From NCBI GenBank assembly GCA_013407085.1, contig JACCGJ010010799.1:169475-233474 (forward strand): a DNA stretch of 64,000 nucleotides. Reading direction: 5' to 3'. Positions 751-58,600 of this stretch are shown here, piece after piece (the first letter of the stretch is position 1; every line of letters begins with the position of its first letter). Source of the DNA: Atriophallophorus winterbourni. Taxonomy: Eukaryota; Platyhelminthes; Trematoda; Plagiorchiida; Microphallidae. The position numbers and the translations under genes were made by a program. The notes under the pieces were generated by a model. The model had not been told where the DNA came from, did no database searches, and was given only the letters and a program-made list of their open reading frames with translations.

Positions 751-758
751 GTACTCAA

Positions 759-1690: not shown

Positions 1691-1719
1691 ATTTCGGTTA
1701 AATCGCAACGAAACCAAAT

Positions 1720-4112: not shown

Positions 4113-4537
4113 TGTAAGATGTACATTGAATTTATTTTATTGACAACTAACTGTTTAAATCTGCTGGTATTTTTGTATATTTTTACCATTTTTGTTTTAC
4201 CGAACTACTTGAATTTATTCGTTCTTGAGCTTATATTTGTGTATCTTTATTTGGCCGTTTGCGCGCTATTTGAAGTTGCGATCACTCGTGGTCATTGTTG
4301 CTGTTGAATATTGTTGTTTTTGGATTCAGTACGAAGCGGAATAATTGAGGTTTGCTATTTTTATTGTATAATTATTTTGCTTCAATAGTACCGTACTCAT
4401 CTCACGTATTGTCTTGTCAATATTTTGGTGGGCTTGGACGCGTCACTCAACCGTTGGATAGACACATTGGTGTTTATATCGTGACTGAAATCTTTGACGT
4501 TGAACTCGATTTTCCCCGGACCGAATTGTCGGTTACA
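4113..4537 (+). repeat. 3' LTR
   Basis: Direct repeat of 326-750. It is preceded by a purine-rich tract with GGGGGGCGG (4104-4112), a plausible polypurine tract, and followed by target duplication AATGG (4538-4542). Differences from the 5' LTR cluster near 4117 and 4207-4222. Confidence 0.92.
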
Positions 4538-28420: not shown

Positions 28421-28440
28421 AGTTAACAGCTTGCCAAACG

Positions 28441-28623
28441 ATGCAACCATGCTATCTCACTCCGGTTGGAGGTAACTTTCAGACATATTTCGTGCAGCAA
28501 GGACCACAAATTTTTCAGTGTCAACTTGCCCATGGCAGTCACACGATTATGATTCATGGGTTCAAAAGTATTAAGCAACTGTACAAAAAGATTGCCGAAG
28601 GTTTTGGTATAAAAGAGTCTGAG
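28441..28623 (+). CDS. gipc: GIPC exon 1 (GH1 start)
   Basis: 61 codons from ATG 28,441 to donor GAG|gtacgt (28,624), ending in phase 0. Residues ~28-57 (QLAHGSHTIMIHGF, then KQLYKKIAEGFGI) align with the QLAHGSPTG.I.GFtnvkELY.KIAE.F segment of GIPC proteins. The frame is also open 18 nt upstream to an AG (28,421-28,422, after TATTTTCC). It could therefore be an internal exon with more N-terminal sequence elsewhere; the ATG is chosen because the family N-terminus is short and variable. Confidence 0.88.
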
Positions 28624-31600: not shown

Positions 31601-34600
31601 CTGGTTTCGTGCTGCTTGGAGTCATCAGTTAAGGACAGTAGGATAAGGATCAGCTTGATATTGTAACAATGGGAGAATGGTAAACAAGTTGCGCTTGTAC
31701 GCCACTGTTGGACAGAGTTTCCACGAACAACCTGTTTAATCATATGTGTGCCAAATCACAGGCACAATTGTTTGAGCTCATGGTCATCAACGGAAATATT
31801 CATTTGCTTAAATTTCCCTCAAACAAAATCCAGGACCGCTTTCGTTCCGTTGGTAACAGTTTGCTCAGAATGCGAATGACATGAGTGTGAGGGGAATGCA
31901 TTCGAATGAACATTTTCGTTCAACTTCTTGGGTTAACGCATCTACTTGCTGTGTGCTTCACAAGGCTGGTCTTGTTAAAGTCACCCAAAAGCGACAGACA
32001 AATTCACGCTTTCTTTACAGTTCTTCGCTGCTTCAAGATATGTGGATCCTTATGGTACTGTCACCATCAGATGAGTGCAAAGTGTTGGTTACCTCCCGTG
32101 ATGTGTGTTTATGTGATCGAAATGCATGCAAAGAGGATGATTTTCAAAGACCATGAGCTCAATCTGATATACGTATGTTTGAACAGGTTAGTACACTCAA
32201 CCTAACGCAAAAGTGGCTTACAAGTTCACGTTTTCTTCAAAATTAATTGGTACCTCTAATTTTAGTGCAAAATAAATGGTTTTCAAACGATGATATAATC
32301 GTCTAATTTCAGATTATGTATTGCACACGTAACACGAATGAAATTGACATGAATCACCTTTTGAGTAGTGATTTGAGCGCTAGTGATAGCATCTTCGCTC
32401 ACATTCGTGGTGTCCAAAAGCAAATTAACATACAACGAGAGGGAGATTCCTTCGGGGTCGGTTTGAAGGATTTGGGATGCGGAATTGTGTTTATCAATCG
32501 AATGGAAGTTCTTGGAACATTCAAAAACGCTTCAAACGTTTCTCATGGTCTAGTTGCAATTGGCGATCAGATTGAATTCATCAACGGGAAGTCTTTCCAA
32601 GGTTCTACCACAAATGATGTGCTAGGATTTCTTCATAGCATACCTGTTGGAGGATTCGCACTGCTAACTCTACGCTCTCCATACAAGTCAATTATTGGTA
32701 AGTGTGAATGTATTGACATTGTTAACTTTGTATTCTATATTTTACATAAATGGGGTCATCGTCCTTTAACTTGTAGTTGACATCGCTACGTAAGGACATT
32801 GTTTCGCAAGAATGATTACAGAGTATAACGCAATCTAAAACACATATTTTCACGATTATGTAATGAATAGTTTTCTGTGTCCGATCGATTAGACATTGCC
32901 ATGAAAATGAAATTTGAATATCATCTGTTAGAGCGGATTTTGGGCTGCGTTTCGCCTCTGTCACAGAAAAATAGTTAGAACATGGAGCATAATTAAATTG
33001 CACTAAATCACACAACCTCGAATTAGTCTTACCTCGTTCGTCAAGGTACGAAATAAACACGGGATCGAATAGCATTATTTCGCAGATCAAGATCAATTGG
33101 CTCTAACGAATATGGGCACTAGTTTAATTGAATCATTCTCAATCCCATTGTAATCTACTAATTTAGGTGACTTTTCCGACACTAAATTTCATTATGATTT
33201 GAAAAAGGGCTATACTATTCCGATTATGCAATATGAATACTTTATTCAAAAATTTTTTATTATTTTTGAATCCATAAAATTGATTCCCTTATCGCAAACA
33301 GCAGTTTGGAATAAAATAATGGTTTTATTTGTGTGAAGTGGTGAAGTTTATCAACTTGTTTTTTTTCTGAATTCATTTTTCTATGGTGATTCATGCTTGA
33401 CATTTGAAGATTCCAGATTTTTGGTTGAGTAAGCATTCAATTATACAATAACGCCAGGTTTTACGTATAGATACACGTTAACAAAACGATTTGTTCCATA
33501 TGAGTGAGCTAACTTGTTACAGGCTGGTGGGAAATGCCAGGGTTATCTCACATCTAGCCTTCATTTTTCAAATTGAATATATCTAAACAATTGGAGATAA
33601 CCAAACTGGTAAATAAGATATTCACAACAAAGCACACAGCGATTAATTATACCTGTGACATTTCCGCCTGGGGTGTGATGTTTCCAGCATGTAACAGTGA
33701 CCTCGGATAATGCGAGTATTTTGTATTTGGTACAATTAATTCATGACCCCGAAACAATTCTAAATTTTTATAAAAGAGCAAAAATTCACCTTTCTTTTGG
33801 TGAAGGAGTCTTCAGATCCATTTGTCCGAAGAGCTCAACACATGGCATAGTGTTAAATCTATCTTAAAGCTTAATATGTTGATGATATAAAGGAGCTAGA
33901 CGCAAAATATGTTTCTGGACCATGATGTCCGGGTTTAGGAAGTGTAGTCTAATTATTAGATGACGTACTCCCAGTTCGATCGCACCAACACCTTGCAAAA
34001 TGATGATCACTTTCTACGTGTTAACACTGTAAATTTGATTCGTCATTATCATTTTCATATCTGTCTCAGTTGTGGTATGCTCACATACACACAAAACAGA
34101 TTTTCATAATGTGATTTCACCGTCCTATAAATCAATGTCAATTCTCGTACCGAGCAACAGCCAAATTTATACATCTGTCATGGATATGCATGCAACTAGG
34201 GTTCGTACGACGAATTATGATGTTTGTTTACAAATGACTAACTATTTGTTACAGTTGAATGAAACTAAGATTACAATCTTAACCTGATGAAGGCAAACAG
34301 CAGGACACCCTCTGCGGATTTTGAGTGCTGGGAGTGTGATCACCACAAGACATTGGTTATGTTGAACGTCTCTAGCGCTTGACCAATAATCACTCTGTGA
34401 TTCTTTATTTAAACATCGTGGTTTGTCAACGAATTTCGTCAGTGTTTCGCGTTGCTGGTATACAGTACCTTGCCGCGCAGCAGGGCTATTAGTAAAAGCG
34501 GGTCCTCACTACTACGCCTGTTACTAAGTTCAACAACTTATGATGGAAAAGCAAATAGCTTGAAGATACCGTAGGATATACATTTATATATTTAGTTTCA

Positions 34601-37600
34601 GGAGGATTTTGAGAGAGAGTAAGATGATTCCAAATTCGACATGTAGTGGAGATATGTCAGACGGAGATGTATGTTTCGGCAAATTCTTCATCCCAGTGAC
34701 AATATAAAAACGGAATCACTCTTGAACAAATAGGCACATTTTTATGTATTTCCGTCAATCACATCCAAATACACGTTTCGTGATGTTTACACTCAGCAGG
34801 TAGGGGCAGTAGAAGAAGAAGAAATTGGTTTTATTCATATAAACGAATTTTCAGCAGTTACAAAAATTTCACCAAATAATTTAAAACAAATTGGCCGACA
34901 GGTCCGGACATCAATTTGTCGAATGAACGATGTTTCTTTTCCGTCTTGATTGATTATTTCCACATGTGTTCCAGTTTATTAACAAATGGTGTAACCAATC
35001 GTTTTGAGACAAAATTGTCACGACTATTCCCGGTATCTCGTAATTCGTTCAAAATTGCGCGTCGAAAATTGGCCTCATTTGATACGAAAATTGATGCATT
35101 TTGCCCACAGCTAGCGTTGACATTTAACGAAAAATGTTGAAAATCCTGCGGAGAAATTAATTATATGCACGGCCGATTTGAAGGCCGCCGCAGTAGGATC
35201 ATATCGCATGCGCTTGAGAAAGTGGAAGAATGGTAATCTAGTTGCGCTTGTATGCCATTGTTGGGTCAGGTTTGGTACGACCAAGCCGTTCAATCACATG
35301 AGCCCACACTCATGTGGACAGGGTTTGAACCCATGACTATGAACAAACAAGCACATTTTCATGTATTTCCATCACACACACACGACGACAGGCTTCGTGA
35401 TACATGCACTCATCTGGTAAGGACATTGAAATCATGATTTGCTTGTCGTTGCCATGAGATTTCGTATCATTAATTTGAATATCATTTCAACTAATGTCGA
35501 CCTGGCGGTAAAGTGTTATAGAGAAAACATAAACGGATTGAATGGAAGTTTCGGATACATTGAAGTCGAAAAGGTGAAAGGTGAGATAATGGCTGTGTGT
35601 GGAGGGGGGCCTTCTGAATCATTTTTCAATAATTGGCAGCGGGAGTGCGACACCGTATGGATTATTCGGTATATCAGAATTAGGTCATATCTTGTGCTCC
35701 TCGATATAGCACGATCGGAGTATAATCAGTCGCTGCTGAAGTGGTAGAATAAGCAATCCGTTGATCATTTTAGTAACCTTATGTTTAATCGTTTCGGTTA
35801 GCGTGAAATCTTCCTTTAATCATTGTGTCAAAGACTGTGTATGTATACACGAAGTACGTTTTGCAATGATTAATATGGAAAAACTTCTAAAACTTCGTTT
35901 GAGTGAAACGATTATGCTGTATACACGGAGGATTACTCTCTTTCACAGAGCTCACAACACTGGGCTGCACTCAGAAGGACGACATCAATTGCAGGCTGCT
36001 GATAATAGTATCTGATACAACCCGACTCGCAGACGATGCATTGCAGAACGCCGTACAGAAGAACCGTAATCGAAATCTGATAAAACTCATTATATTACTA
36101 AAATTGTTATAAATTAATTTGGATATTTGAGTTCGGTAAAATGATATTTAAAGATGAATTAAACATTAATTTTTTACGTTGTAACAATGTGATAAATAAA
36201 CTCAAATGCTAATGATTGCTGAGTTTAAAAAAAATTTAAATAAGTAATATTGGTAAATCATTAATTGAAAAGTGCATTAGGCGTCGTTAGTGTGCATGCA
36301 AATGCATGCAAATATATGTGTTTTTACGTTAATGTGCCTTATAATAACACCATTTTCTCACTTCTATTACAGTGCAACAGCCGCAATCGATGTTCGCACA
36401 AGCCCAACCGTGTAAGTTAACAAATTTTTCTATGAAAAAATATTGATCGCGAGTCCACCCTTCCTAATTTTCTCGTTAGAAATACAAGCTCGTCAATTCG
36501 ATATTGAGCATTTGTGTATTGCAGATTAGTAAAACACATTAATATAATGATGAATATACGTGATGTTCAATGTGAACAGAGGAAAATATCCTCATTTACA
36601 TTCGTAGCAATCACACACACAGCGACCGCTTCAGTTTTGTTAAAACGTATAAGGTATAAATACTAAGATCAAGATACGCAAGCCTTTATGACGTTGACAT
36701 CTAAGCTCATTTCCGGTTACTTATCACTCTAATATGATGTGTTTGTCTTTACGCGATGGAAATGCATGCAATTTTGGAATTAGTTCACACACATAGGTTA
36801 ATTCCCATTTAGATGTATGTGTGAACACGTGATTGAAATGGTTTCTCGTACCATTATCATCCAAATAAGATTACTCTATCATTTCTTGTTTATCGTTTAT
36901 ACACTGTTTCAATAATTGCATATCGTGAGTTACTGTATAAACCTGATGACTGCGAAGATCGGGAAATCAGTTGAAGAGTGTGTTTGATTAAAATGGATAG
37001 AAATGACGATTATTTTAAACCCTATGTATTTGTCCCCATCTGGATATGTGTTAGCAAGTGTGATTGAACAGGTCGGTCTTTACTAGGAATAATCTTTAGT
37101 AGTTATAACGTCAATTCAGAAATCGTATTATTCACACGAAACATTTTCAGTGCCTCCCCCGCAGATGCAAGGATTCACGCAGCCCCAAGCGAGTAAGTCT
37201 TATATTTGGAAAGGAAATAAATTGACGCAGGTGATACCAAATAACCAATTTCAACCGGATTTGGTCGTAGATATTTCGATACTGAATTCCAATTTCAAAA
37301 ACTGTTCAGAAGTAATCTTTCAGACTTTAAATTTGTTTGCTCTGTGTCTGCGTGACCATTTGGTGGATTCTTACTCTCAAAATGATGTGATCGAATTGAG
37401 TATTTTTCCTCGGATATTCTAATAATCGCAGTTCATGTGCGGCCTGAGATTATTAATAATTTGTTTACCAGTTGCGCATGTATGCCACTGTTTCGTAAGG
37501 TTTGGTACGACCAACCTGTTCAATCACATGAGACCACACACATGTAGACATATTTTAAATCCATGACCATGAACAAAAAATTTCAATTGCTATCATTTCT

Positions 37601-40600
37601 ATCACAAACATACCCCACGACCGGTTTCGTGCTGTTTGCACTCATCAGGTAAGGTCAATATCCGCATGCGCTTGAAACAGTGTTGTACCAAACTTATCCA
37701 ACAGTGGCATACAAGCGCAACATGTTTACCATTCTTCAACTGTTTCATGCGCATGCGGATCCTGATTCTACTGTCCCATACCTGATGTGATTTGTGTCTG
37801 TGATGGAAATGCATGCAAATATATGTGTTTTTACGTTAATGTGCCTTATTATAACTCCATTTTCTCACTTCTATTACAGTGCAACAGCCGCAACCGATGT
37901 TCGCACAAGCCCAAACGTGTAAGTTAACAAATTGTTTCTATGAAAAAATATTGATCGCGAGTCCACCCTTCCTAATTTTCTCGTTAGAAATATTTAAGTA
38001 TTCAAGGATGGATGATTGGAATAGTTCACACTGTAAAACACCACGACATTAAGACTTAAAAGAAAGGTTGAATAATAGTGAAAAATATCACTTTACAACA
38101 CCACAGAATGAAAACGTAAAACTGTAAGACAGTGGAACACGGGTACAACGAATCGCTGGGGAGAGAGTAAAATGTTCGTTATAAGCGGAGTTCGTTGTAA
38201 GTAAAACGCATTGTCAGACGTGATTTTCGCGCCGTTCATAGATGGATATTATTTGCAGTGAGACAGCAAATGTAGGCTCTGTGAATTAGCTTCAATCGGT
38301 GTGGATCATACATAACGTTGGCCAACACACTCACGTCACTTTGTTTTTGTGTAATAAACTATTTGCAGTGAAATGACTGTCAATTAATATATTGTTGGGA
38401 GGGAACTTTGTCAACTTAACGAAAAGAAGTCTCCTGGCGCAGACAAAATTACCCCCGCCATAATTCGCAGGTGTCGAATTTCTTTGAATGCTCCGTTCAC
38501 GCACTTATTCAATCTCAGCCTACATGAAGACAACATAAAATCGCATTGAAAGTCAGGGTTGATAACTCTTACTTATAAGGGTGGTAGCCGTTCAGACACA
38601 GAAATCTATAGACCGGTAACGCTACTTCCGGTGATCTCTAAATTAATATAACGCATTTTGACTGTGCGCATGAGAGAACGTTTTGACCGCAGCACAACAC
38701 GGTTTTCGAAGAAATCGTTGCTGTTTATCTAACCTTCTTACAAGGTTCGAAGATTGGACTGAGGCATTAGACGAAGGTGAGGCTGTACTTGCTTGCTACA
38801 TCGACATTTCCAAAGCTTTCGATAGAGTCAACCATGACATTTTAATAAAAAAGCTCGGAACTTGTGTAATAACGGGAATGTTGCTGAATTGCATAAGGGA
38901 CTTTCTCACCGATAGACACGTCCAAGTTCATGTTGGCAGCAAGTTCGCTAGAAGAAAAGACGTCACAAGTAGAGTTCCTTAAGGATCGGTGCTTGAACCT
39001 CTACTATTCTTGGTGTATATAGACGATATAGTAGAGGATATTGGATGCAACTTAATACTCTTTGCCGATTATGTAAAAATATTGAAACGTGTCAGGTGTG
39101 TTAATGACTGTGCGGCATTACAACGGGGTCTGTGCACCTTGTTTCGTTGGTTCCAGTCAAATGATTTACAATTTGATGAAAATTGCTGCGGCTTGAAAAA
39201 TCTGTGCACCAAAGGTATCAGCTTGGCACGCATGATCTGCTTTGGACTACCGGAGAAAAAGATTTCCTTATCTGGGTTTCGTTTAATCTTAAGCTTGGAT
39301 ATCATTGCCGGACAGAGTACAATAAAGCAACTATAAAGTTCACATTTGGACTTGCATCCAGAAAATAATATGCATTTTTTAATATGACATTTGAAAGTAA
39401 ATTTTATATTTTGCTCTTAAAACGAGTGCATTTTTCAAATACTTTGCATCGAAGCACTAATTTTGAATAATCAGCTTTAATTCAGATACCGTGATTGGTG
39501 AATGACCTGTTGATTCTTTATTCATCCAAACAGTTCAACCACAACCCATCAGTAAGTTATGCTAATTAAACGTTTTCATAAATCAAAATGTTGGGATCAA
39601 TTTTTGAACATCTGTGTCCCCGTTCCATAACAATCAGTTTAATTATATGTGCGCACATAAATACAAATTGGGTTTCACCCAAGGGATCGGATAAGAGATC
39701 CATATTTGCATGCATCTTGATCACAACTGCACCCCACGAACGGATTGATGCTTTCTGTACATTTAAGTTAGATAAAGTACAATCTGGATGCACACGACTT
39801 GATTGAACAAGTAGTTAGCGTTAGCATCATCCATCAGTGGCTTTCAAGTTGACACATTCTTTATCATTTATCCAGTGTTAAGTCATGCAGAAGTTGATTG
39901 TACATTCCCTGCCTGATGATGACAAAACCTGTCGTCTGTTGTGTGATGAAAATTGATGCCTAGACGAATATTATTTCTAACATTTGCATGGTCGAAACTG
40001 GTTTATCTTCCAAACGAGTGATTTGTCATGTCGATTTGATATTTTAAATAATGAAAATATACTCATGTGGATCAGTTAATTTAAAATTTGAAACATATTT
40101 ATCATATATATTGCGGCCTCTGTAGTAAACATATTTTTTTATTTTTTATTTATTTTTATTTTAGTCAAAAATTAACCAATTTTAACCGGATTTGGTCGTA
40201 GATATTTCGATACTGAATTCCAATTTCAAAAACTGTTCAGAAGTAATCTTTCAGATTTTAAATTTGTTTGCTCTGTGTCTGCGTGACCATTTGGTGGATT
40301 CTTACTCTCAAAATGATGTGATCGAATTGAGTATTTTTCCTCTGATATTCTAATAATCGCAGTTCATGTGCGTCCTGAGATTATTAATAATTTGTTTACT
40401 AGTTGCGCATGTATGCCACTGTTTCGTAAGGTTTGGTACGACCAACCTGTTCAATCACATGAGACCACACACATTTAGACATATTTTAAATCCATGACCA
40501 TAAACAAAAAAGTTCAATTGCTATCATTTCTATCACAAGCATACCCTACGACCGGTTTCGTGCTGTTTGCACTCATCAGGTAAGGTCAATATCCGCATGC

Positions 40601-43600
40601 GCTTGAAACAGTGTTGTACCAAACATATCCAACAGTGGCATACAAGCGCAACATGTTTACCATTCTTCAACTGTTTCATGCGCATGCGGATCCTGATTCT
40701 ACTGTCCCATACCTGATGTGATTTGTGTCTGTGATGGAAATGCATGCAAATATATGTGTTTTTACGTTAATGTGCCTTATTATAACTCCATTTTCTCACT
40801 TCTATTACAGTGCAACAGCCGCAACCGATGTTCGCACAAGCCCAAACGTGTAAGTTAACAAATTGTTTCTATGAAAAAATATTGATCGCGAGTCCACCCT
40901 TCCTAATTTTCTCGTTAGAAATATTTAAGTATTCAAGGATGGATGATTGGAATAGTTCACACTGTAAAACACCACGACATTAAGACTTAAAAGAAAGGTT
41001 TAATAATAGTGAAAAATATCACTTTACAACACCACAGAATGAAAACGTAAAACTGTAAGACAGTGGAACACGGGTACAACGAATCGCTGGGGAGAGAGTA
41101 AAATGTTCGTTATAAGCGGAGTTCGTTGTAAGTAAAACGCATTGTCAGACGTGATTTTCGCGCCGTTCATAGATGGATATTATTTGCAGTGAGACAGCAA
41201 ATGTAGGCTCTGTGAATTAGCTTCAATCGGTGTGGATCATACATAACGTTGGCCAACACACTCACGTCACTTTGTTTTTGTGTAATAAACTATTTGCAGT
41301 GAAATGACTGTCAATTAATATATTGTTGGGAGGGAACTTTGTCAACTTAACGAAAAGAAGTCTCCTGGCGCAGACAAAATTACCCCCGCCATAATTCGCA
41401 GGTGTCGAATTTCTTTGAATGCTCCGTTCACGCACTTATTCAATCTCAGCCTACATGAAGACAACATAAAATCGCATTGAAAGTCAGGGTTGATAACTCT
41501 TACTTATAAGGGTGGTAGCCGTTCAGACACAGAAATCTATAGACCGGTAACGCTACTTCCGGTGATCTCTAAATTAATATAACGCATTTTGACTGTGCGC
41601 ATGAGAGAACGTTTTGACCGCAGCACAACACGGTTTTCGAAGAAATCGTTGCTGTTTATCTAACCTTCTTACAAGGTTCGAAGATTGGACTGAGGCATTA
41701 GACGAAGGTGAGGCTGTACTTGCTTGCTACATCGACATTTCCAAAGCTTTCGATAGAGTCAACCATGACATTTTAATAAAAAAGCTCGGAACTTGTGTAA
41801 TAACGGGAATGTTGCTGAATTGCATAAGGGACTTTCTCACCGATAGACACGTCCAAGTACATGTTGGCAGCAAGTTCGCTAGAAGAAAAGACGTCACAAG
41901 TAGAGTTCCTTAAGGATCGGTGCTTGAACCTCTACTATTCTTGGTGTATATAGACGATATAGTAGAGGATATTGGATGCAACTTAATACTCTTTGCCGAT
42001 TATATAAAAATATTGAAACGTGTCAGGTGTGTTAATGACTGTGCGGCATTACAACGGGGTCTGTGCACCTTGTTTCGTTGGTTCCAGTCAAATGATTTAC
42101 AATTTGATGAAAATTGCTGCGGCTTGAAAAATCTGTGCACCAAAGGTATCAGCTTGGCACGCATGATCTCCTTTGGACTACCTCAGAAAAAGATTTCCTT
42201 ATCTGGGTGTCGTTTAATCTTAAGCTTGGATATCATTGCCGGACAGTGTACAATAAAGCAACTATAAAGTTCACATTTGGACTTGCATCCAGAAAATAAT
42301 ATGCATTTTTTAATATGACATTTGAAAGTAAATTTTATATTTTGCTCTTAAAACGAGTGCATTTTTCAAATACTTTGCATCGAAGCACTAATTTTGAATA
42401 ATCAGCTTTAATTCAGATACCGTGATTGGTGAATGACCTGTTGATTCTTTATTCATCCAAACAGTTCAACCACAACCTATGAGTAAGTTATGCTAATTAA
42501 ACGTTTTCATAAATCAAAATGTTTGGGATCAATTTTTGAACATCTGTGTCCCCGTTCCATAACAATCAGTTTAATTATATGTGCGCACATAAATACAAAT
42601 AGGGTTTCACCCAAGGGATCGGATAAGAGATCCATATTTGCATGCATCTTGATCACAACTGCACCCCACGAACGGATTGATGCTTTCTGTACATTTAAGT
42701 TAGATAAAGTACAATCTGGATGCACACGACTTGATTGAACAAGTAGTTAGCGTTAGCATCATCCATCAGTGGCTTTCAAGTTGACACATTCTTTATCATT
42801 TATCCAGTGTTAAGTCATGCAGAAGTTGATTGTACATTCCCTGCCTGATGATGACAAAACCTGTCGTCTGTTGTGTGATGAAAATTGATGCCTAGACGAA
42901 TATTATTTCTAACATTTGCATGGTCGAAACTGGTTTATCTTCCAAACGAGTGATTTGTCATGTCGATTTGATATTTTAAATAATGAAAATATATTCATGT
43001 GGATCAGTTAATTTAAAATTTGAAACATATTTATCATATATATTGCGGCCTTTGTAGTAAAAATAAATTTTTTTATTTTTTATTTATTTTTATTTAGTCA
43101 AAAAATAACCAATTTTAACCGGATTTGGTCGTAGATATTTTAATACTGAATTCCAATTTCAAAAACTGTTCAGAAGTAATCTTTCAGACTTTAAATTTGT
43201 TTGCTCTGTGTCTGCGTGACCATTTGGTGGATTTTTACTCTCAAAATGATGTGATCGAATTGAGTATTTTTCCTCTGATATTCTAATAATCGCAGTTCAT
43301 GTGCGGCCTGAGATTATTAATAATTTGTTTACCAGTTGCGCATGTATGCCACTGTTTCGTAAGGTTTGGTACGACCAACCTGTTCAATCACATGAGACCA
43401 CACACATGTAGACATATTTTAAATCCATGACCATAAACAAAAAATTTCAATTGCTATCATTTCTATCACAAACATACCCCACGACCGGTTTCGTGCTGTT
43501 TGCACTCATCAGGTAAGGTCAATATCCGCATGCGCTTGAAACAGTGTTGTACCAAACTTATCCAACAGTGGCATACAAGCGCAACATGTTTACCATTCTT

Positions 43601-46600
43601 CAACTGTTTCAAGCGCATGCGGATCCTGATTCTACTGTCCCATACCTGATGTGATTTGTGTGTGTGATGGAAATGCATGCAAATATATGTGTTTTTACGT
43701 TTATGTGCCTTATTATAACTCCATTTTCTCACTTCTATTACAGTGCAACAGCCGCAACAGATGTTCGCACAAGCTCAACCGTGTAAGTTCACAAATTGTT
43801 CTATGAAAAAATATTGATCGGGAGTCCATTCTCCCTCATTTTCTCGTTAGAAATATTTAGGGATTCAAGGATGGATGATTGGAATAGTTCACACTGTAAA
43901 ACACCACGACATTAAGACTTAAAGAAAGGTTGAATAATAGTGAAAAATATCACTTTACAACACCACAGAATGAAAATGTAAAACTGTAATACAGTGGAAC
44001 ACGGGTACAACGAATCGCTGGGGAGAGAGTAAAATGTTCGTTATAAGCGGAGTTCGTTGTAAGTAAAACGCATTGTCAGACGTGATTTTCGCGCCGTTCA
44101 TAGATGGATATTATTTGCAGTGAGACAGCAAATGTATGCTCTGTGAATTAGCTTCGATCGGTGTGGATCATACATAACGTTGGCCAACACACTCACGTCA
44201 CTTTGTTTTTGTGTAATAAAATATTTGCAGTGAAATGACTGTCAATTAATATACTGTTGGGAGGGAACTTTGTCAACTTAACGAAAAGAAGTCTCCTGGC
44301 GCAGACAAAATTACCCCCGCCATAATTCGCAGGTGTCGAATTTCTTTGAATGCTCCGTTCACGCACTTATTCAATCTCAGCCTACATGAAGACAACATAA
44401 GATCGCATTGAAAGTCAGAATTGATAACTCTTACTTATAAGGGTGGTAGCCGTTCAGACACAGAAATCTATAGACCTGTAACGCTACTTTCGGTAATCTT
44501 CAAATTGATATAACGCATTTTGACTGTGCGCATAAGAGAACGTTTTGACCGCAGCACAACACGGTTTTCGAAGAAATCGTTGCTGTTTATCTAACCTTCT
44601 TACAAGGTTCGAAGATTGGACTGAGGCATTAGACGAAGGTGAGGCTGTACTTGCTTGCTACATCGACATTTCCAAAGCTTTCGCTAGAGTCAACCATGAC
44701 ATTTTAATAAAAAAGCTCGGAACTTGTGTAATAACGGGAATATTGCTGAATTGCATAAGGGACTTTCTCACCGATAGACACGTCCAACTTCATGTTGGCA
44801 GCAAGTTCGCTAGAAGAAAAGACGTCACAAGTAGAGTTCCTTAAGGATCGGTGCTTGAACCTCTACTATTCTTGGTGTATATAGACGATATAGTAGAGGA
44901 AATTGGATGCAACTTAATACTCTTTGCCGATTATATAAAAATATTGAAACGTGTTGGGTGTGTTAATGACTGTGCGGCATTACAACGGGGTCTGTGCACC
45001 TTGTTTCGTTGGTTCCAGTCAAATGATTTACAATTTGATGAAAATTGCTGCGGCTTGAAAAATCTGTGAACCAAAGGTATCAGCTTGGCACGCATGATCT
45101 GCTTTGGACTACCGGAGAAAAAGATTTCCTTATCTGGGTTTCGTTTAATCTTAAGCTTGGATATCATTGCCGGACAGAGTACAATAAAGCAACTATAAAG
45201 TTCACATTTGGACTTGCATCCAGAAAATAATATGCATTTTTTAATATGACATTTGAAAGTAAATTTTATATTTTGCTCTTAAAACGAGTGCATTTTTCAA
45301 ACATTTTGCATCGAGGCACTAATTTTGAATAATCAGCTTTAATTCAGATACCGTGATTGGTGAATGACCTGTTGATTCTTTATTCATCCAAACAGTTCAA
45401 CCACAACCTATGAGTAAGTTATGCTAATTAAACGTTTTGATAAATCATAATGTTGGGATCAATTTTTGAACATCTGTGTCCCCGTTCCATAACAATCAGT
45501 TTAATTATATGTGCGCACATAAATACAAATAGGGTTTCACACAAGGGATCGGATAAGAGATCCATATTTGCATGCATCTTGATCACAACTGCACCCCACG
45601 AACGGATTGATGCTTTCTGTACATTTAAGTTAGATAAAGTACAATCTGGATGCACACGACTTGATTGAACAAGTAGTTAGCGTTAGCATCATCCATCAGT
45701 GGCTTTCAAGTTGACACATTCCTCATCATTTATCCAGGGTTAAGTCATGCAGAAGTTGATTGTACATTCCCTGCCTGATGATGACAAAACCTGTCGTCTG
45801 TTGTGTGATGAAAATTGATGCCTAGACGAATATTATTTCTAACATTTGCATGGTCGAAACTGGTTTATCTTCCAAACGAGTGATTTGTCATGACGATTTG
45901 ATATTTTAAATAATGAAAATATATTCATGTGGATCAGTTAATTTAAAATTTGAAACATATTTATCATATATATTGCGGCCTCTGTATTAAAACTAAAAAT
46001 TTTTATTTTTTATTTATTTTTAATTTAGTCAAAAAATAACCAATTTTAACCGGATTTGGTCGTAGATATTTCGATACTGAATTCCAATTTCAAAAACTGT
46101 TCAGAAGTAATCTTTCAGATTTTAAATTTGTTTGCTCTGTGTCTGCGTGACCATTTGGTGGATTCTTACTCTCAAAATGATGTGATCGAATTGAGTATTT
46201 TTCCTCTGATATTCTAATAATCGCAGTTCATGTGCGGCCTGAGATTATTAATAATTTGTTTACCAGTTGCGCATGTATGCCACTGTTTCGTAAGGTTTGG
46301 TACGACCAACCTGTTCAATCACATGAGACCACACACATGTAGACATATTTTAAATCCATGACCATAAACAAAAAATTTCAATTGCTATCATTTCTATCAC
46401 AACCTTCCCCTGCGACCGGTTTCGTGCTGTTTGCACTCATCAGGTAAGGTCAATATCCGCATGCGCTTAAAACAGTGTTGTACCAAACTTATCCAACAGT
46501 GGCATACAAGCGCAACATGTTTACCATTCTTCAACTGTTTCAAGCGCATGCGGATTTTGATTCTACTGTCCCATACCTGATGAGTGCAAACAAACGGATC

Positions 46601-49600
46601 CGATCGTGTGTTGTGTGTGTGATGGAAATGCATGCAAATATATGTGTTTTTACGTTTATGTGCCTTATTATAACTCCATTTCCTGACTTCTATTACAGCG
46701 CAACAGACGCAACCGATGTTCGCACAAGCCCAACCGTGTAAGTTAACAAATTTTTCTATGAAAAAATATTGATCGCGAGTCCACCCTTCCTAATTTTCTC
46801 GTTAGAAATATTTAAGTATTCAAGGATGGATGATTGGAATAGTTCACACTGTAAAACACCACGACATTAAGACTTAAAAGAAAGGTTTAATAATAGTGAA
46901 AAATATCACTTTACAACACACAGAATGAAAACGTAAAACTGTAATACAGTGGAACACGGGTACAACGAATCGCTGGGGAGAGAGTAAAATGTTCGTTATA
47001 AGCGGAGTTCGTTGTAAGTAAAACGCATTGTCAGACGTGATTTTCGCGCCGTTCATAGATGGATATTATTTGCAGTGAGACAGCAAATGTAGGCTCTGTG
47101 AATTAGCTTCAATCGGTGTGGATCATACATAACGTTGGCCAACACACTCACGTCACTTTGTTTTTGTGTAATAAACTATTTGCAGTGAAATGACTGTCAA
47201 TTAATATATTGTTGGGAGGGAACTTTGTCAACTTAACGAAAAGAAGTCTCCTGGCGCAGACAAAATTACCCCCGCCATAATTCGCAGGTGTCGAATTTCT
47301 TTGAATGCTCCGTTCACGCACTTATTCAATCTCAGCCTACATGAAGACAACATAAAATCGCATTGAAAGTCAGGGTTGATAACTCTTACTTATAAGGGTG
47401 GTAGCCGTTCAGACACAGAAATCTATAGACCGGTAACGCTACTTCCGGTGATCTCTAAATTAATATAACGCATTTTGACTGTGCGCATGAGAGAACGTTT
47501 TGACCGCAGCACAACACGGTTTTCGAAGAAATCGTTGCTGTTTATCTAACCTTCTTACAAGGTTCGAAGATTGGACTGAGGCATTAGACGAAGGTGAGGC
47601 TGTACTTGCTTGCTACATCGACATTTCCAAAGCTTTCGATAGAGTCAACCATGACATTTTAATAAAAAAGCTCGGAACTTGTGTAATAACGGGAATGTTG
47701 CTGAATTGCATAAGGGACTTTCTCACCGATAGACACGTCCAAGTTCATGTTGGCAGCAAGTTCGCTAGAAGAAAAGACGTCACAAGTAGAGTCCTTAAGG
47801 ATCGGTGCTTGAACCTCTACTATTCTTGGTGTATATAGACGATATAGTAGAGGATATTGGATGCAACTTAATACTCTTTGCCGATTATGTAAAAATATTG
47901 AAACGTGTCAGGTGTGTTAATGACTGTGCGGCATTACAACGGGGTCTGTGCACCTTGTTTCGTTGGTTCCAGTCAAATGATTTACAATTTGATGAAAATT
48001 GCTGCGGCTTGAAAAATCTGTGCACCAAAGGTATCAGCTTGGCACGCATGATCTGCTTTGGACTACCGGAGAAAAAGATTTCCTTATCTGGGTTTCGTTT
48101 AATCTTAAGCTTGGATATCATTGCCGGACAGAGTACAATAAAGCAACTATAAAGTTCACATTTGGACTTGCATCCAGAAAATAATATGCATTTTTTAATA
48201 TGACATTTGAAAGTAAATTTTATATTTTGCTCTTAAAACGAGTGCATTTTTCAAATATTTGCATCGAAGCACTAATTTTGAATAATCAGCTTTAATTCAG
48301 ATACCGTGATTGGTGAATGACCTGTTGATTCTTTATTCATCCAAACAGTTCAACCACAACCCATGAGTAAGTTATGCTAATTAAACGTTTTGATAAATCA
48401 AAATTTTGGGATCAATTTTTGAACATCTGTGTCCCCGTTCCATAACAATCAGTTTAATTATATGTGCGCACATAAATACAAATAGGGTTTCACCCAAGGG
48501 ATCGGATAAGAGATCCATATTTGCATGCATCTTGATCACAACTGCACCCCACGAACGGATTGATGCTTTCTGTACATTTAAGTTAGATAAAGTACAATCT
48601 GGATGCACACGACTTGATTGAACAAGTAGTTAGCGTTAGCATCATCCATCAGTGGCTTTCAAGTTGACACATTCCTCATCATTTATCCAGGGTTAAGCCA
48701 TGCAGAAGTTGATTATACATTCCCTGCCTGATGATGACAAAACCTGTCGTCTGTTGTGTGATGAAAATTGATGCCTAGACGAATATTATTTCTAACATTT
48801 GCATGGTCGAAACTGGTTTATCTTCCAAACGAGTGATTTGTCATGTCGATTTGATATTTTAAATAATGAAAATATATTCATGTGGATCAGTTAATTTAAA
48901 ATTTGAAACATATTTATCATATATATTGCGGCCTTTGTAGTAAAAATAAATTTTTTTATTTTTTATTTATTTTTTATTTAGTCAAAAAATGACCAATTTT
49001 AACCGGATTTGGTCGTAGATATTTCGATACTGAATTCCAATTTCAAAAACTGTTCAGAAGTAATCTTTCAGACTTTAAATTTGTTTGCTCTGTGTCTGCG
49101 TGACCATTTGGTGGATTCTTACTCTCAAAATGATGTGATCGAATTGAGTATTTTTCCTCTGATATTCTAATAATCGCAGTTCATGTGCGGCCTGAGATTA
49201 TTAATAATTTGTTTACCAGTTGCGCATGTATGCCACTGTTTCGTAAGGTTTGGTACGACCAACCTGTTCAATCACATGAGACCACACACATGTAGACATA
49301 TTTTAAATCCATGACCATAAACAAAAAATTTCAATTGCTATCATTTCTATCACAACCTTCCCCTGCGACCGGTTTCGTGCTGTTTGCACTCATCAGGTAA
49401 GGTCAATATCCGCATGCGCTTAAAACAGTGTTGTACCAAACTTATCCAACAGTGGCATACAAGCGCAACATGTTTACCATTCTTCAACTGTTTCAAGCGC
49501 ATGCGGATTTTGATTCTACTGTCCCATACCTGATGAGTGCAAACAAACGGATCCGATCGTGTGTTGTGTGTGTGATGGAAATGCATGCAAATATATGTGT

Positions 49601-52600
49601 TTTTACGTTTATGTGCCTTATTATAACTCCATTTCCTGACTTCTATTACAGCGCAACAGACGCAACCGATGTTCGCACAAGCCCAACCGTGTAAGTTAAC
49701 AAATTTTTCTATGAAAAAATATTGATCGCGAGTCCACCCTTCCTAATTTTCTCGTTAGAAATATTTAAGGATTCAAGAATGGATGATTGGAATAGTTCAC
49801 ACTGTAAAACACCACGACATTAAGACTTAAAAGAAAGGTTTAATAATAGTGAAAAATATCACTTTACAACAGCAGAGAATGAAAACGTAAAACTGTAATA
49901 CAGTGGAACACGGGTACAACGAATCGCTGGGGAGAGAGTAAAATGTTCGTTATAAGCGGAGTTCGTTGTAAGTAAAACGCATTGTCAGACGTGATTTTCG
50001 CGCCGTTTTACTGTACACTTGTAAACAATAAATAAGTGAAGAATGTCTTACCTTTGTGTTTCTGCACCGCTAGATTATTGGATAATGTCTTTACAATTCA
50101 ATGGAGTGAATTCTGCATCATTGAAATTTTATATTTCACATTCAGTGTTCTCTGTCGGCAGCAAACTTTGTCTACCCGATGAAAATGTTTGTGTAATAGA
50201 AATTTGCTCCTATCGATTAAAAACGCCTAATAGGCTGGAAAACACACGGTCTTCTTTCGTATTTTTCTATTATTTTATTAACATGATCATATGAGCTCGT
50301 GTTCAATGGAGCATCAAAATTATTCTCGCTCCATATATCGTCCTTAAAATTTACATGCACATTCAATGGTTCAGCAAGCTTAATCTCATGATGTTATTTA
50401 TTTGTTCAAAGTTTCAATGGCACAAATGTTATATGTCGGAGGGGGCTTCGTACGAATGTTAAGCCTGGTGGCACCCAAGGTTAGCCAAACAAATAATAAT
50501 TACTCATGATTCACTAATTTTCTGCTTTTCCAAATTGGCTAAGCAGAACATCTTTAAAAAAGTCGAATTTTAATCGAATTTTATTCGATTTTTAGATAAA
50601 TTATAATAATAATAATTTTAATGGAAATATTTGAAAACAATACGTTCGGGATATACAAGATCTCGAAACATGATAAAGTGGCTCCATGCCAAATACGGTG
50701 AAGTATTAATGACGATTATTACAAAATTTATCAATAAATGTGATATGAAGTTCGAAAATATGTGACCGATTTTTTAAACCGGTGTTGTTACATTCACTGA
50801 TGAACATTTTTTACTCACACACGCTAAGTTCACTACTGAGTGCAATGAAATAAGTAGCTTTTTAAATCCGCGAAAATTAAATCATATGTCTATACTGAAT
50901 AAACCAAATTCGAGTATTCAAATTGATGGAATATATTGTGCAGTGTATTTTAAATAAAAGGCAGCATTATAGAAAGTATTGTGCCTACGACAACACAATT
51001 AAATTTGTCAACATATTTCATTGCAATTGAAAAAACTACACTGCCAGACTCACAAATAATTACCACGACTTTTACCTCATGTGTGTTCGTGATTTGGTTT
51101 TGCCGAAAAATGTAGTTTTTCGTGCATTTATTGTAATTTAATGATTTCATATTCATTGAAATGTAATCGGGAGAAAAGAAATTTCATTTCAAAATCTTGC
51201 GCGAGCAATGTGATTAATATTTACTACATTGTAGGTTGCAATCGATAATAGGAAAGAAATAAACAAAAAATTGAAAACAAAATCTTGAATGATGTTTGTA
51301 ATTGTAGCCACAGTTAAATATCTTTCAAAACGAAGTATGCATTGTTAATACAGAGTCAGAGAATGAAATCGTATCAAGCGATTAATTCTCATAAAATAAC
51401 CAAACTTATTGTGCTGGCTGCGGAACGGTAAGCAAAATAAATCATTTGAAAAAATAAAACTTCCATGCTAAATAAATGGCATGATATTGAGGCGTTCGAC
51501 AGCAGAGTAGAAAATTATAGCTGGAAGTGAGTAATTTTCTAATCAAAACATTTCGTGAATATTCTGGTTTAAAGGATGTCATAGACAGTGTAGTTTTGGG
51601 ATAAGCTGTAATTCCCCACAACGCTACAGCGGCGCGTTACTTACAAACCTTCTGACAAACAATCCCAACGAAAGACTTAAAAATCTGGTCTTGTATGACC
51701 TGGTAGAACTGCTTCAATTAACAGCGTATAGGACAAAGGCAGGTGAAAGGCGGCCCCAAATACGTTTGCCTATTTGGATGTAGCGCGTATGTCCATGAAC
51801 GGAGGTTGACCGCCCAGGTAAAGGAAACAATTATTGCAAACTCTTAACGACATGTGACAATATGCAATCGTGAAATGTGTTTCCGGATTCCTTCTCGAGG
51901 AAAAGACCGAAACCAGATACACTTTAGGCATTTCGAATTTTTAGTCAACTTTTTCCCGAAACAACTGTGACTACTTCTTTTTCAATATGTCTCATCCTTT
52001 GCTTTCGACTATGTCGTAAAGAGAAAGTAATTTCTGAGTGAGCAACAGCTATTTCTCAACTTTTTACTTCAATGGTAAACAACTCAGCACAAAGTAGAGG
52101 CCATGTCATTGCAAGAATATGAATAATAGTATTCTAACCAGCAGCTACCGGTTAAATGCTATTTATTGGCTCAGCTCTTTGTGCGTGTTTCTGCGTCGGA
52201 AATGATAGTGAGGTTTCATTGTTCAGCAACCGCTCACCGCAAACTGGGCAACTTTCAGTTAATAAGATGTTGCTTTGTCACAGTCTGCAATACGCATTAG
52301 GTGAATGGGGATTAAGAACCAACTCGAAAGCGCACCACATTTTTCCGTATCAGCGGTACAAATAGCTGACTTGAGTTAATCAAATTAAAATTGAGAATGT
52401 GCTATGTCTTTTCAGTGCTTCGGAATTTATTATCGACATATCGAATATCAGGGTCAGAAGACAATCAACTGTTATTTTTAGGGGACTCAAATTGCCGAAA
52501 ATTAACGTAGCAACCCTGAGAGATACGCATTTACGCGACGTGTTTCGCGAAACTGTAATTGCAAAATATTGTGGAACGAATTGGACCTTGTTTAACCTAG

Positions 52601-55600
52601 ACTGTAGTAAGGCTGGTCATGCAAAATACATGATAAAAGGAGCAGAAAAATGAATCACAGAATTCGAATGGATTTGAACAATTACTTTGATGCGCAAAAA
52701 TGTGACCTTTGTGCTATTTAAGGTTAGCTGAAAAGGACCTTTTATCATCAAATCGCTAAAATATTGTGTGGTGGTATTCTGTGATTGAATTGAAAGAATT
52801 AATGCAGATTACGCGTCTCAAACAACCTGACTATCGAATGTAAATAGACATCACCTTTTAGAGTTGATCATGTAGTTCAGTCTTCTTGTCATCTTCACCA
52901 TATCTTTAATAAACAAAACACTCAAATAGTTTCGAAACAACATAGGTCGTTTCATTTACATGAAGTAATCCCTCGTTTTAAGCGTTAATACGAAAAACGT
53001 AATCTCCACAAGATAATACTAGAGCGATGATTCAGACACTGACCATTCATTGGGTTGTAAAAACATGAAGCTTCGACAAATAGATTACACCGAGAGACAT
53101 TAACTGGCAAGACGTGAGTCGCTGTCGGGTTGATGTATGAACCTCATTCTTTTTGTGAATGCAACAAGCTTTCACTTGCAATCATGGCATCCTGTTCCTG
53201 ATATTACTGTCCCCAACTCAATAGTGCAAACAGCACAAAATCCCGTCGTCGGTGAGTCTACAGAAAAAATATCCAAAAAATCGTTTTGGTTCGTGGTTAT
53301 GGGTATTACCCCATATTCGGGTTAAAAAGAACGAGTGAATGTAATAGCATATTAAGCATTCCAATAATTACAATATTCAAAATAGAAATGGAAGCAGGTA
53401 TCCACTCTACCCACCATCATATGTTAATTCGATTGCAAATATAAGACTTGTCCGGACGTCGTGTTTTTTAGAGACCACAAACCCGAAAAGTACAAAGTAC
53501 ACACAAGCATTGTCATATTAATTTAAAACAGAGACATCATGAATTCATGCACAGTTTTCATGCATACATAAAAGCCACAATTCAATCCTCATTTACGAGC
53601 TTACCAACAGGCAGACACAGATTACCAATGTCTATAAAAATCAGTTCAATGTTACATTTTATTGTTATTTTCTAAATGCCATATACTTTTCTTTAATAAG
53701 GATGATAAAAAGGTAATTTTTCACGAAGCCATTGCAATTTCGCTTTACGCGCACAGCAGAGCCAACTTGAGAATAATAATTTTGCCGCTTCTAACCATCT
53801 AGTATATTACAAAGACGGTAATGTGGGTGGTATAATTAATTGCATCAGGTCATTCAGGATATATCCCTTTTCCTGTCCCTAAATTTATTTCATGAAACGC
53901 ACGGTCTTCATGGACATTCACCATTTTTCACATTTTCGCAAAGCATGCACATATCCTACAGCCGGATTTGCTCATATTTTGTGGTGCTCACATTCCCCGC
54001 ACATGAAAACTACAACCGGTTCCTGGGTGTTCGCGGTCATCAGGTAGTTGCAATAAGTTCAGGTTTAGCGGGCATTTAAACACTGGTGAAGTGGGAAACA
54101 GAGTTATACTGGTAAACATATTGCATTGTATGCCACCGTTAGTTAAGTTTGGAACGGCCAGCCATTCAATCGCATGAGTCCACACTCTTATAGACTGAGT
54201 TTTATCCCAAGCCAATAAACAACAAAGCTATTTCGCAGGCATTTCTATCACACACACATACACTACGATCGGATTCTTACTGGTTACACTCATTATATCG
54301 GGACAGCAATAACAAATTTCGAAATAACCTTAAACAGTGGGAAATGCTGAACGAATCGCGCTTGTATGCAAGCGTTGAATACCGATCGTCGTGTATGGGA
54401 AATCTATGCAAATGTACCTATATTTACGTGGTCAATTTTTTAAACTTTGTCTGCATGAGTGTTAGCTCATGTTGTTGAACAGGTTCGTCGTACTAACCTT
54501 ATCCAAAAGTAGCATACGAGCGTTACTTGTTTAACATTCTTGCACTGTTTCAAGCGCATGCAGATCCTCATCTTACTGTCCCTACCTGATGAGTGAAAAC
54601 ATCACGAAACCGATCGTGGGTTTTGTGTGTGATGGAAATGCAAGCAAATGAGCTATTTTGTTCAAACATTTAGTGGAATGCCGCTTTTGTATAAACACCA
54701 TTGTTACAGAAATATCAAATCTATAAGTCACAGCAAAAAACTCGTAAACCAGAAATACTTTCATGTGTTATCTGGTATCATTTGCGTAACGAGATAATGA
54801 TGACTTTTCTTTAATATTAATCAAACAATTTTTAATGTTAGCCCATAAGAAATAAGATAGTATTGCGAGCAGTAATAAGTTTTCGTTGAAATGACTTATT
54901 TGAGGCATATTGTAACCGAACATATCAAACTTTATAATTAAAAACGAGAAAATTCATGCGATTTTGATGTACATCCATGGTCGACATCGACCGCAGGATG
55001 CCAACAGACACAATACGTTACAAACACTCAGGGTGTAGGTTTGTGGAGATTATTTGAGCATCTTCGAAAGAACAAAGTTTCCAATTATCAATCAAAATCA
55101 AACCTAATTTAGGAAAACAACGTGATGTTTTGCGCATATTTTGACCACTTGTATACCACATCCAGTACCACGGGTGTGACCGTAATCAAATGCGGACAGT
55201 AATTTTGGCTTTCCAAAATATCTAATTTTAATCTGCTAGCAAATATAACGCTTGTCCGGACAGTGTTTTTCAGTGCTCGCAAATTCGAAATATACAAAGT
55301 ACACACAAGCATTTTCATATTAATTTTAAACAGAGAAATCATGAATTCATGCACAGTTTTCATGCATACATAGAAGCCACAATTCACTTCTCATTGATGA
55401 ACCTACTATCAGGCAGGCACAGATTAACTTTGGCTTTGAAAGTCAGTTAAATCTTACATTTTATTGTTATTTTCTAAATGCCATATACTTTTCTTTAATA
55501 AGGATGATAAAAAAATTCTTTTTCACGTTGCCATGGCAATTTCGCTTTACGTGCGCAGCAAAGCCAACTTGAGAATAATAATTTTGCCGCTTCTAACCAT

Positions 55601-58600
55601 CTAGTATATTACAAAGACGGTAATGTGGGTGGTATAGTTAATTACATCAGGTCATTCAGGAAATATCCCTTTTCCTGTCCCTAATTTTATTTCATGAAAC
55701 GCACAGTCTTCATGGACACTCACCATTTTTCACATTTTCGCAAAGCATGCACATATCCTACAGCAGGATTTGCTCATATTTTGTGGTGCTCACATTCCCC
55801 GCACATGAAAACTACAACTGTTTTACTGCCTCACAGTAAAACATTTATTTTGCATGCGTTGTTTTTCATCATTTTTGTCTTGTCGGTCAACTTGCGTTAA
55901 CATAAACACGAGAGTTCAATTGGGACAATATGCGAGCTGCTCTGTCAATCCGCTTATCAATTTCCGTGTCTTGCAAGTGGTTATCCGCAATGGGTAAACC
56001 CTGATATGTCGAATATTGTACTGGTTCAAGATGACAGTTTCCAACAATGATGATTGGTGGGGATACAATCCATTGACCAATGACTTTGATGTTGCTAATG
56101 CTGAATGATTGCCTAAATTCATTGCCTGCGGTGAACAATAGACTGGATGTATTCTTGGGAGTGAGCAATAATGGTTGCATCGTAGTCAAACAGCAGATCA
56201 CGGATTAGCACAACTTGTAGCATGGTTTGTGCTCTCAACCGGATCAGGTTGAAAAACCTGCCATTACTTCGCGTGCGTATGTAAACACATTCTGTTCTCG
56301 TCCCAATAGAGAGCTTCGAACCAGAGCAAAGAAAATACCGGAAAGCGTGGGAGCAAGAGCACACCCTTTTTTGACGCCTCGGCGAATTTCGAAATTGAAC
56401 TGAGCCTTCATGTCAGAATGGACCGAGATAACTAGTTTTAACTCTCTTGTGGGGCAGCATATAAGATTAAACATTTTGAAATAACCTTACCTACTGACTT
56501 AGTTGAATGCCATCGTCAAGTCACTAAATCCGTGTATAAATTTATACGCTGATCCTGTCACCGTTATCAGCGAGAAGATCATGTTAACAGTTGATCTTTC
56601 CTTGCGGAAGACACCTTGAGTTTCGGAGTAAACTCTAACAGCTGCAAATTGTAGCCGGAAGTGTATGACTCTAGGAAACATTTTGCCTATAACATTCAGA
56701 ACGGAGTTTTTGCTTTGTAATTATTGTAGATGCCGCTATCACCATTAATCTTAAAGAGCTTGGTGATCTTCGTGTCTCTCATGTATTATAATACATATAT
56801 TGAACAGTTCACCTGCCATATTTTCCGGACTTTTTACAGTTTTTCGCGTTGCTCGAACGTCGTATCATAATCACTTTGCGTAAAAGCTCAAGAATTCTTC
56901 ACACAAATAAACTTCATATTGTACAGTTATGGTCAACATATATACGCTGATATGATAAATATTTTTTCGAATATTTTTATGAATAATTAGTGGAGATTCT
57001 TGTTTTCTTTTCAACGATATACGTGAGCTTAAATTCTAAATATCTTTAGTTAAGACTTGTTCTACTTCTTTGTCTAGCGGTGTTCTTCGATATATCAAAA
57101 GTTTTACCCGATGCGACTAAAATATTTTCATATCCTAAAACTTGAATCCCGAAATCCGTCGCTTTATATGATTATAAAGCATAAAGTTGAACAAATTATC
57201 TAGATAAATATATTTTACAGAAAGAAGATCCGAAGGAGAAAGCTGTTGCTGAAATTTTGAAGAAAGAAATCAATAACTATGATGACAAATTACGTGAGTC
57301 TCGAATGTCTTGAGTATTATGTCGACCACTGTTTTTCCGGATGTTTCGAAATCACATAATATATATATATATGTTCGCGGCCTTATGGTAAATGATCTTG
57401 AGGAGTGTATTTTATGTTGATGAGCGATTTGAAGAACTTTCGAAGTTGTATATTTATTAGAATGGCAGTGCTTTCCGTGAAGTGTTGTTTGCATCCGTCG
57501 GTCAATGTCCATCTAGTATGTGCTTCAATATCGCATCATGGTTAATTGCTCGACAGCTTTTAGTATGGATAAACAAAACAATCTCTTCCACTGAAATGCA
57601 CAACGATTATCAGTACTGGGAAGTACGATTTTAGTTGAACGTGGACAGCGTGATTTACCATTCGCGGCCAATAACATTATGTCCAATTCTTCAGCTTGCT
57701 GACGACAATTTGAAAATTGACTATAAGATGAGTGGTCAACAGCAAGTTCTTGCTAAATCGTAGGCTGAATGTCAAGAGCTTTCATATCTCTTTGGCAAAC
57801 GTCTTTGCTACAAATGCCCAATTGTAGTCAATGCTCGATTTTGGTATTTCAATTCACCACAGAGTAGATCTTTCGGTGTAAAACCTATTTCCATTCTGTG
57901 CACATGACCAACTCGTCACAGGCTCTAAAGATAGGTTTTATAAAACACGTGATCATTCGTACTGAAGAGTATTTCCACAAGTATCAACTCCTACAAGTGT
58001 GTCAATCTAAATGAGACGCAAACAGCATGTTGTTTCCTAACTTTATCTGTCTCGCACTTCCGAAGATAACTAAATCAACCACATGCGTTCAAAAGAATTG
58101 AATCTTGTGTAAGAAACATTATATAATTTTAATGAAATTCATACCAAAATTGGCAGCTTTCTTAAGATATACAAACAAGCACTTTGAGATAAATGTATTG
58201 TAAAACTGAATTTTTTCATTGCTTGTCTATATTAATCAACAGTCTATATATAAGTACGATGGATTATTGAAGACATTTTGCAAGATTCAAATTATGTCTT
58301 TGGAATTCTGTTGTCAATTTTCGAGTGATTGATTAAGAATCAAATAATTTCGAGCTTATCATTGACAATAAATTCAATATTTCCAATGCGAATATTTAAG
58401 AATTTATCATGTGTTATCCGTTGAAAAAATGTAATACATAACCCTCAAACTCAACTGAACATTACTGAAAAACACTTTTCGTTTTCTCAAGATTGGATTG
58501 AAGCAATTAATATATTACTACGTAATTTAGGACTTTCATTTCTGCTATTAAAGAATAATAAGCAATGAAAAACAATTGAAAATTGACACTTGGTTGATGT

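Follow-up and report, generated by a model that had tools for sequence, protein, structure and literature searches.

What are rows of exons of 18 to 42 nt doing between the PDZ exon and the probable GH2 exons of a GIPC gene? We met this arrangement in a 64-kb stretch of the trematode Atriophallophorus winterbourni (the window, which is the final 64 kb of the 233-kb contig C6955, from an assembly of 537 Mb), whose plus strand carries such a gene. Judged from genomic sequence, the gene probably belongs to a GIPC family in which the linker between PDZ and GH2 has been built, and resized, by duplication of micro-exons.

The assignment of the gene to the GIPC family, already made in an earlier note on this DNA, is unmistakable from its GH1 and PDZ domains. 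Exon 1 (28441..28623; this and all further features of the gene are on the plus strand) encodes the N-terminus and the first half of GH1, its open reading frame (ORF) matching Pfam PF25083 at 1.6e-14, and exon 2 (32313..32697), which ends in a phase-1 GTAAGT donor, encodes the rest of GH1 together with the PDZ domain. Joined, the two exons give a full GH1 (PF25083, 9.8e-28, profile positions 1-67 of 67), and residues 24-187 of their product match the GIPC1 entry 5v6b of the PDB (phmmer, 7.7e-32), identifying a PDZ domain of the GIPC type with the loop SFGV; the Pfam PDZ model reported no match for this product. We noticed no hydrophobic leader by eye in exon 1, with further exons possible upstream of it and a possible acceptor just ahead of 28430. 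Among 253 protein candidates from beyond its own genome, no relative reached E <= 0.001, and scans of bacterial and viral contigs likewise found none.

Downstream of the PDZ exon we predict 11 micro-exons, which together contribute 116 residues to the joined gene model (378 residues plus stop) and account for 348 nt of its 1137-nt coding sequence. They begin with a 39-nt exon, copy 1 (QQPQSMFAQAQP, 36373..36411), and a 42-nt exon (PPPQMQGFTQPQA, 37151..37192) that is conserved in paralogs. The others alternate through a tandem array: a 39-nt exon (37880..37918) and an 18-nt exon encoding QPQPI (39534..39551) in unit 1; the same pair at 40811..40849 and 42465..42482 (QPQPM) in unit 2, at 43744..43782 and 45396..45413 in unit 3, and at 46699..46737 and 48349..48366 in unit 4; and a 39-nt exon (49652..49690) in partial unit 5. 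The earlier note had described six exons of 39 nt, each with an AG acceptor, a GTAAGT donor, and phase 1-1, as well as a related exon of 42 nt, and all seven are present with these features; its count of seven micro-exons and about 92 residues was too low, since the 18-nt exon in each full unit had been overlooked.

All 11 micro-exons are of phase 1-1 and are followed by GTAAGT donors. They are consecutive, short, multiples of three in length, and symmetric in phase, which is the structural criterion for micro-exon genes (MEGs). Three kinds can be told apart (42-type, 33/18-type, and 39-type), and the encoded peptide is of low complexity and rich in Gln, Pro, and Met, with 35 Q and 16 P among the 92 linker residues that remain when the 18-nt exons are excluded from the count. 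Because every micro-exon begins and ends in phase 1, any number of them can be gained, lost, or skipped without a break in the frame. When subsets of the seven 39- and 42-nt exons were joined to the last exon alone, with neither 18-nt exons nor a first GH2 exon included, 128 of 128 were in frame and free of stops. Phase 2 is open in the micro-exons too, so the phase-1 assignment rests on the phase of exon 2. At the DNA level the 42-nt exon appears to be kin to the 39-nt exons (13 of 5000 shuffles reached the score), and among 116 candidates it ranked first behind the six 39-nt copies (score 18, next 3); peptide order alone is no proof of this kinship, with 351 of 2000 shuffles reaching the score.

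Five of the six 39-nt copies sit one per unit in an array of ~2.93-kb repeats, as had been noted. By self-comparison the array (37239..50007) consists of four full units of 2931, 2933, 2931, and 2953 bp, followed by an incomplete fifth of 1021 bp, with pairwise identities of 96.7-99.5%. Each full unit holds one 39-nt and one 18-nt micro-exon, and the partial unit holds one 39-nt exon. The tandem amplification that had been proposed is borne out as a duplication, but the amplified unit carries a pair of micro-exons (39 + 18 nt) and not a single one. With head-to-tail exon copies inside one gene, the locus also qualifies as a tandem exon duplication. The units further contain LINE (long interspersed nuclear element) reverse-transcriptase sequence, for which the domain match, made on unit 1 only, is interrupted by a stop. 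Copy 1 (36290-36484) is not part of the array, with which it has only ~195 bp in common.

The strongest evidence that these exons are more than a feature of one array comes from paralogs. The comparison was confined to this genome, and its search counts are lower bounds, with only the best candidates scored. The PDZ exon has at least nine matches, the window gene included: one on C5978 (98%), an inverted sister on C6955 (91%), one on C11130 (77%), gene 3 at C6955:9898 (72%), paralog B on C1403 (64%), two on C7676 (36-37%), and, as the ninth, a fragment with a stop on C1403. The region 3' of the PDZ exon was compared for the sister, gene 3, and B; C5978 ends 812 bp past the PDZ exon and C11130 inside it. 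The sister has nine micro-exons (39, 42, 39, 18, 39, 18, 39, 18, and 39 nt) and three full units against four in the window gene, and B has five micro-exons (42, 27, 42, 33, and 39 nt), giving linkers of 97 and 61 residues. By BLAST or pattern, the micro-exons are intact in 11/11 cases in the window gene, 9/9 in the sister, 5/5 in B, and 3/5 in gene 3, and the models of the three intact genes translate through to the final stop.

Gene 3 (C6955:1-14508, minus strand) is, from its sequence, a decaying GIPC copy. We base this on a lost start (there is no ATG in place), a stop in exon 1, a deletion in exon 2, and two damaged micro-exons: its set comprises a 42-type exon reduced to 33 nt that has lost its donor, two further 42-type exons, a 33-nt exon, and a 39-nt exon with an in-frame stop, right after which the contig ends. 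The same lost donor and the same micro-exon stop are found at C7027:24920-31403. Across the paralogs, changes in micro-exon length are all in frame, amounting to 15 nt (33 to 18 and 42 to 27, the 18-nt exon being the 33-nt exon minus 15 nt) or 9 nt (in gene 3); elsewhere, 12 of 189 indels are divisible by three, counted over partly redundant alignments. Together these comparisons show that the micro-exons have long belonged to the gene and are no quirk of a single array. Two more distant GIPC-like genes, at C7676:56498 and 85215, apparently have a phase-1 donor after the PDZ exon. By eye they have no similar micro-exons; three candidates in them scored 12-13, the same range as the weakest true micro-exon, the 33-nt exon of B, at 12.

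The genome search also bears on whether the micro-exon might be mobile-element sequence that landed by chance in a GIPC intron. A foldback-like repeat family occurs directly upstream of the 39-nt exons (37467-37823 and its equivalents in the other units; also 35191-35425 and 54126-54664). Within the array it stops ~60 bp ahead of each 39-nt exon, and its last ~23 bp are retained at copy 1 (36290-36313), closeness that could favor a mobile origin. However, the 39-nt segment was found in at least 15 places in the genome, 12 on C6955 and single ones on C1403, C5956, and C7027 (of which the C7027 place matches gene 3), and all 15 reported places are, or match, GIPC loci in a search that skips very common words. 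The repeat, for its part, is found elsewhere in the window without the exon. We therefore regard a mobile-element origin as highly improbable. The repeat end kept at copy 1 suggests that copy 1 diverged from the array copies after the repeat had inserted.

We also scanned the aligned parts of window positions 32001-50100 against paralog B for segments of 6-159 nt that in each of the two genes had an AG acceptor, a multiple of three as length, and a phase-1 frame free of stops, requiring a donor that matched GTAAGT in 5 or 6 of 6 positions, a rule picked after the exons were known. The phase-1 scan against C1403 returned 12 matches: each of the 11 micro-exons, plus an alternative acceptor inside the 42-nt exon. 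Extending the scan to all phases and to 32001-57100 added only one plus-strand place, 12 nt at 53701; the minus strand gave seven phase-hits at five places, one of them in phase 1. In a looser scan without the donor rule, B kept 11/11 of the real exons, representing only three independent types, and 63/251 of the others.

The linker would lead into GH2, the domain that is hardest to recognize here. A probable first GH2 exon (KYILQKEDPKEKAVAEILKKEINNYDDKL, 57204..57293, donor GTGAGT) is also open in C1403 and C5956, where its splice sites are the same; an alternative start is offered by a phase-0 acceptor at 57221. A probable last exon (59605..59735), encoding the second part of GH2 and ending with the stop TAG at 59733-59735, has a relative at C5956:19943-20068 (E 0.0045, 43%), in which the acceptor is kept and the stop falls one codon earlier. 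C1403 and C5956 yield identical GH2-exon peptides, and on that sequence we took them as one gene or its alleles. Another candidate, 59245-59382, was rejected as direct successor of a 39-nt exon, since the junction T + GA creates a TGA stop. Searching the window by tblastn with human GH2 gave chance-level matches only, the best at E 0.97, and a Pfam scan of part of the listed window ORFs found no GH2. The Pfam GH2 profile PF25082 matched nowhere in the genome, and neither did a control profile. Taken alone, the last-exon candidate is weak: 28 of 2000 shuffles reached its score, ~15 of 2389 window ORFs scored higher, and its PDB matches were all to designed repeat proteins (best 1.9e-4, no individual stretch of which passed). 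The GH2 exons had been called clear in the earlier note, a description that does not hold, since Pfam finds no match and their placement needed a paralog; we consider it probable that GH2 is encoded at 57204-57293 and 59605-59735 in a form too diverged for Pfam.

Several results weigh against a micro-exon-built linker. The two GH2 exons joined reached only a weak score against human GH2 (48 of 3000 shuffles did as well; 26 of 3000 for the paralog), PF25082 had no match in the joined product, and the model of gene B was itself joined from two contigs taken as the same gene. The looser scan against gene 3 kept 5/11 of the real exons and 51/187 of the others, which is consistent with a decaying gene, yet lends no support. 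Between the window gene and B, the micro-exons, with few sites to count, have a dN/dS of 0.72 and exon 1 one of 0.78; the ratio is 2.1 in the PDZ exon, 4.1 in the first GH2 exon (on half a synonymous change), and 1.0 in the last exon, so no codon-level constraint on linker or GH2 is demonstrated. By splice-site score, the 42-nt exon ranks only 167 among 2298 possible phase-1 micro-exons and has a weak acceptor. In the same ranking, which covered 27-63 nt (longer than the 18-nt exons) on both strands of the window with hand-set, approximate weights, the six 39-nt copies rank 3-8; paralog comparison is the stronger argument beyond chance. Finally, the argument that conservation among the array copies proves function was rejected, as the exon changes no more slowly than its flanks: 6/39 sites vary in the 39-nt exon and 14/155 in the flanks (Fisher p 0.25), and only one of the six variable exon sites, judged from the copies listed, is synonymous (GCC/GCT, unit 3).

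It had been emphasized that every copy keeps its splice sites. The sites are indeed intact, but this is often expected from youth alone, the chance of all copies remaining intact in a simple neutral simulation being 0.41 at one of the rates applied and 0.65 at the other. With copies this young, neutral survival this likely, and flanks equally conserved, intact sites in the array are weak evidence. These numbers leave room for a reading in which the old micro-exons (one each of the 42-, 33/18-, and 39-type) are real and the amplified copies are unspliced, or spliced one at a time, so that the array is intronic repeat growth that leaves the protein unaffected. Array copies that are 97-99% identical would probably seem intact regardless, and the array also bears a broken LINE fragment and foldback repeats. 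Yet the splice signals of the 39-nt copies have stayed strong and almost identical and resemble those of the conserved single copies, and no feature that we saw singles out one array copy. On balance we find intronic growth rather unlikely.

A separate concern is that the array or its copy number, which we report as it stands in a draft assembly with near-duplicate contigs, is an artefact, for instance of haplotypes joined as an inverted repeat. Window positions 27188-64000 recur inverted at C6955:50000-15969, mostly at 94.5-99.2% identity with one 842-bp stretch at 89%, and the 3' part is more similar than the 5' part; this large duplication may be real or a haplotype join. Near-duplicates occur on other contigs too, with C5978 matching 27887-33508 at 98% and the exon peptides of C5956 being the same as those of C1403. 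However, the array units differ from one another by 0.5-3.3% and in their exon variants, and the sister gene has three full units, not four, with variants of its own. Because the units differ and a second gene has another unit number, the concern is reduced; part of it remains, since that second gene lies in the largely identical inverted copy on the same contig. We judge an artefact to be a distinctly poor explanation.

We favor duplication of micro-exons that are probably spliced in. The window gene would be one member of a GIPC family expanded in one genome, with symmetric phase-1 micro-exons between the PDZ exon and a diverged GH2 extending the linker, and a 2.93-kb segment carrying the 18- and 39-nt exons would have been duplicated in tandem, lengthening that linker to 116 residues (97 in the sister and 61 in B). 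If they are, the product would be a disordered linker between a receptor-binding PDZ and a motor-binding GH2. Its length may tune how GH2 folds back on PDZ or how far it reaches to myosin VI, and a longer Gln/Pro/Met-rich linker would loosen PDZ-GH2 coupling or extend that reach. More tentatively, and with some doubt, we propose that micro-exon copy number could act as a length dial, changed by unequal exchange from one paralog to another (and perhaps from one individual to another) and by alternative inclusion within an animal, so that receptor-motor coupling is tuned while the domains are untouched.

Known systems resemble this locus in part. GIPC1-3 share the order of GH1 and PDZ followed by a linker and GH2. 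Of the residues that link PDZ to GH2 in mouse GIPC1, 219-235 are disordered and 236-257 structured, and the folded-back GH2 blocks PDZ and the myosin VI face until, as is expected, cargo releases it (PMC5461112); that linker has ~39 residues compared with 116 from micro-exons here, where GH2 is hardly recognizable. Among flukes, Schistosoma japonicum GIPC3 (328 aa) has conserved GH1 and PDZ and a poorly conserved GH2, like the window gene, with the PDZ loop SFGL in place of SFGV, and an alignment of fluke and other GIPCs has lower conservation in GH2 than in GH1 and PDZ (PMC3504512). A GIPC3-like gene is among the alternatively spliced genes of Echinococcus (PMC5440512). Schistosome MEGs have many short exons (3-81 bp) and long introns (PMC10526429), and the window gene too has many short exons; MEGs encode secreted proteins, however, whereas these micro-exons lie inside an adaptor with GH1 and PDZ. 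Tandem duplicated exons likewise arise as neighboring copies of an exon within a single gene, but they are reported to be mutually exclusive, swapping one homologous region (PMC9741552), whereas the short symmetric exons here could all be included together. In the open-licence literature we found no GIPC with a comparable micro-exon linker.

The PDZ exon itself gave mixed signals of selection. It appears to be under purifying selection in comparisons with C11130 (pN/pS 0.37-0.50, p 0.008-0.03), with the exception of B (C1403:16516; 0.74). We do not claim positive selection: B gave pN/pS of ~2 against the window gene, the sister, and C5978 in three comparisons that are non-independent (p 0.011-0.023, uncorrected); B against gene 3 gave 1.24, and other pairs ranged over 0.37-2.58. 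Elsewhere in the window, two 427-bp direct repeats (99.1% identical) around a reverse-transcriptase match mark 324-4537 as probably an LTR (long terminal repeat) retroelement, judged by sequence; LINE-type ORFs with endonuclease and reverse transcriptase lie at 6457-9072 and 21193-23100; and the intron ahead of GH2 contains a 596-bp direct repeat (53421-54016 and 55225-55818, 90% identical).

One genome thus displays several stages in the life of micro-exons: a conserved old set, in-frame change of length (33/18 and 42/27), decay in a broken copy, and fresh tandem amplification. The GIPC copies offer a ready comparison of linkers of 116, 97, and 61 residues. If the micro-exons are used, a widely conserved trafficking adaptor would have gained an easily resized linker, and a strategy known from secreted parasite proteins would reach intracellular scaffolds.

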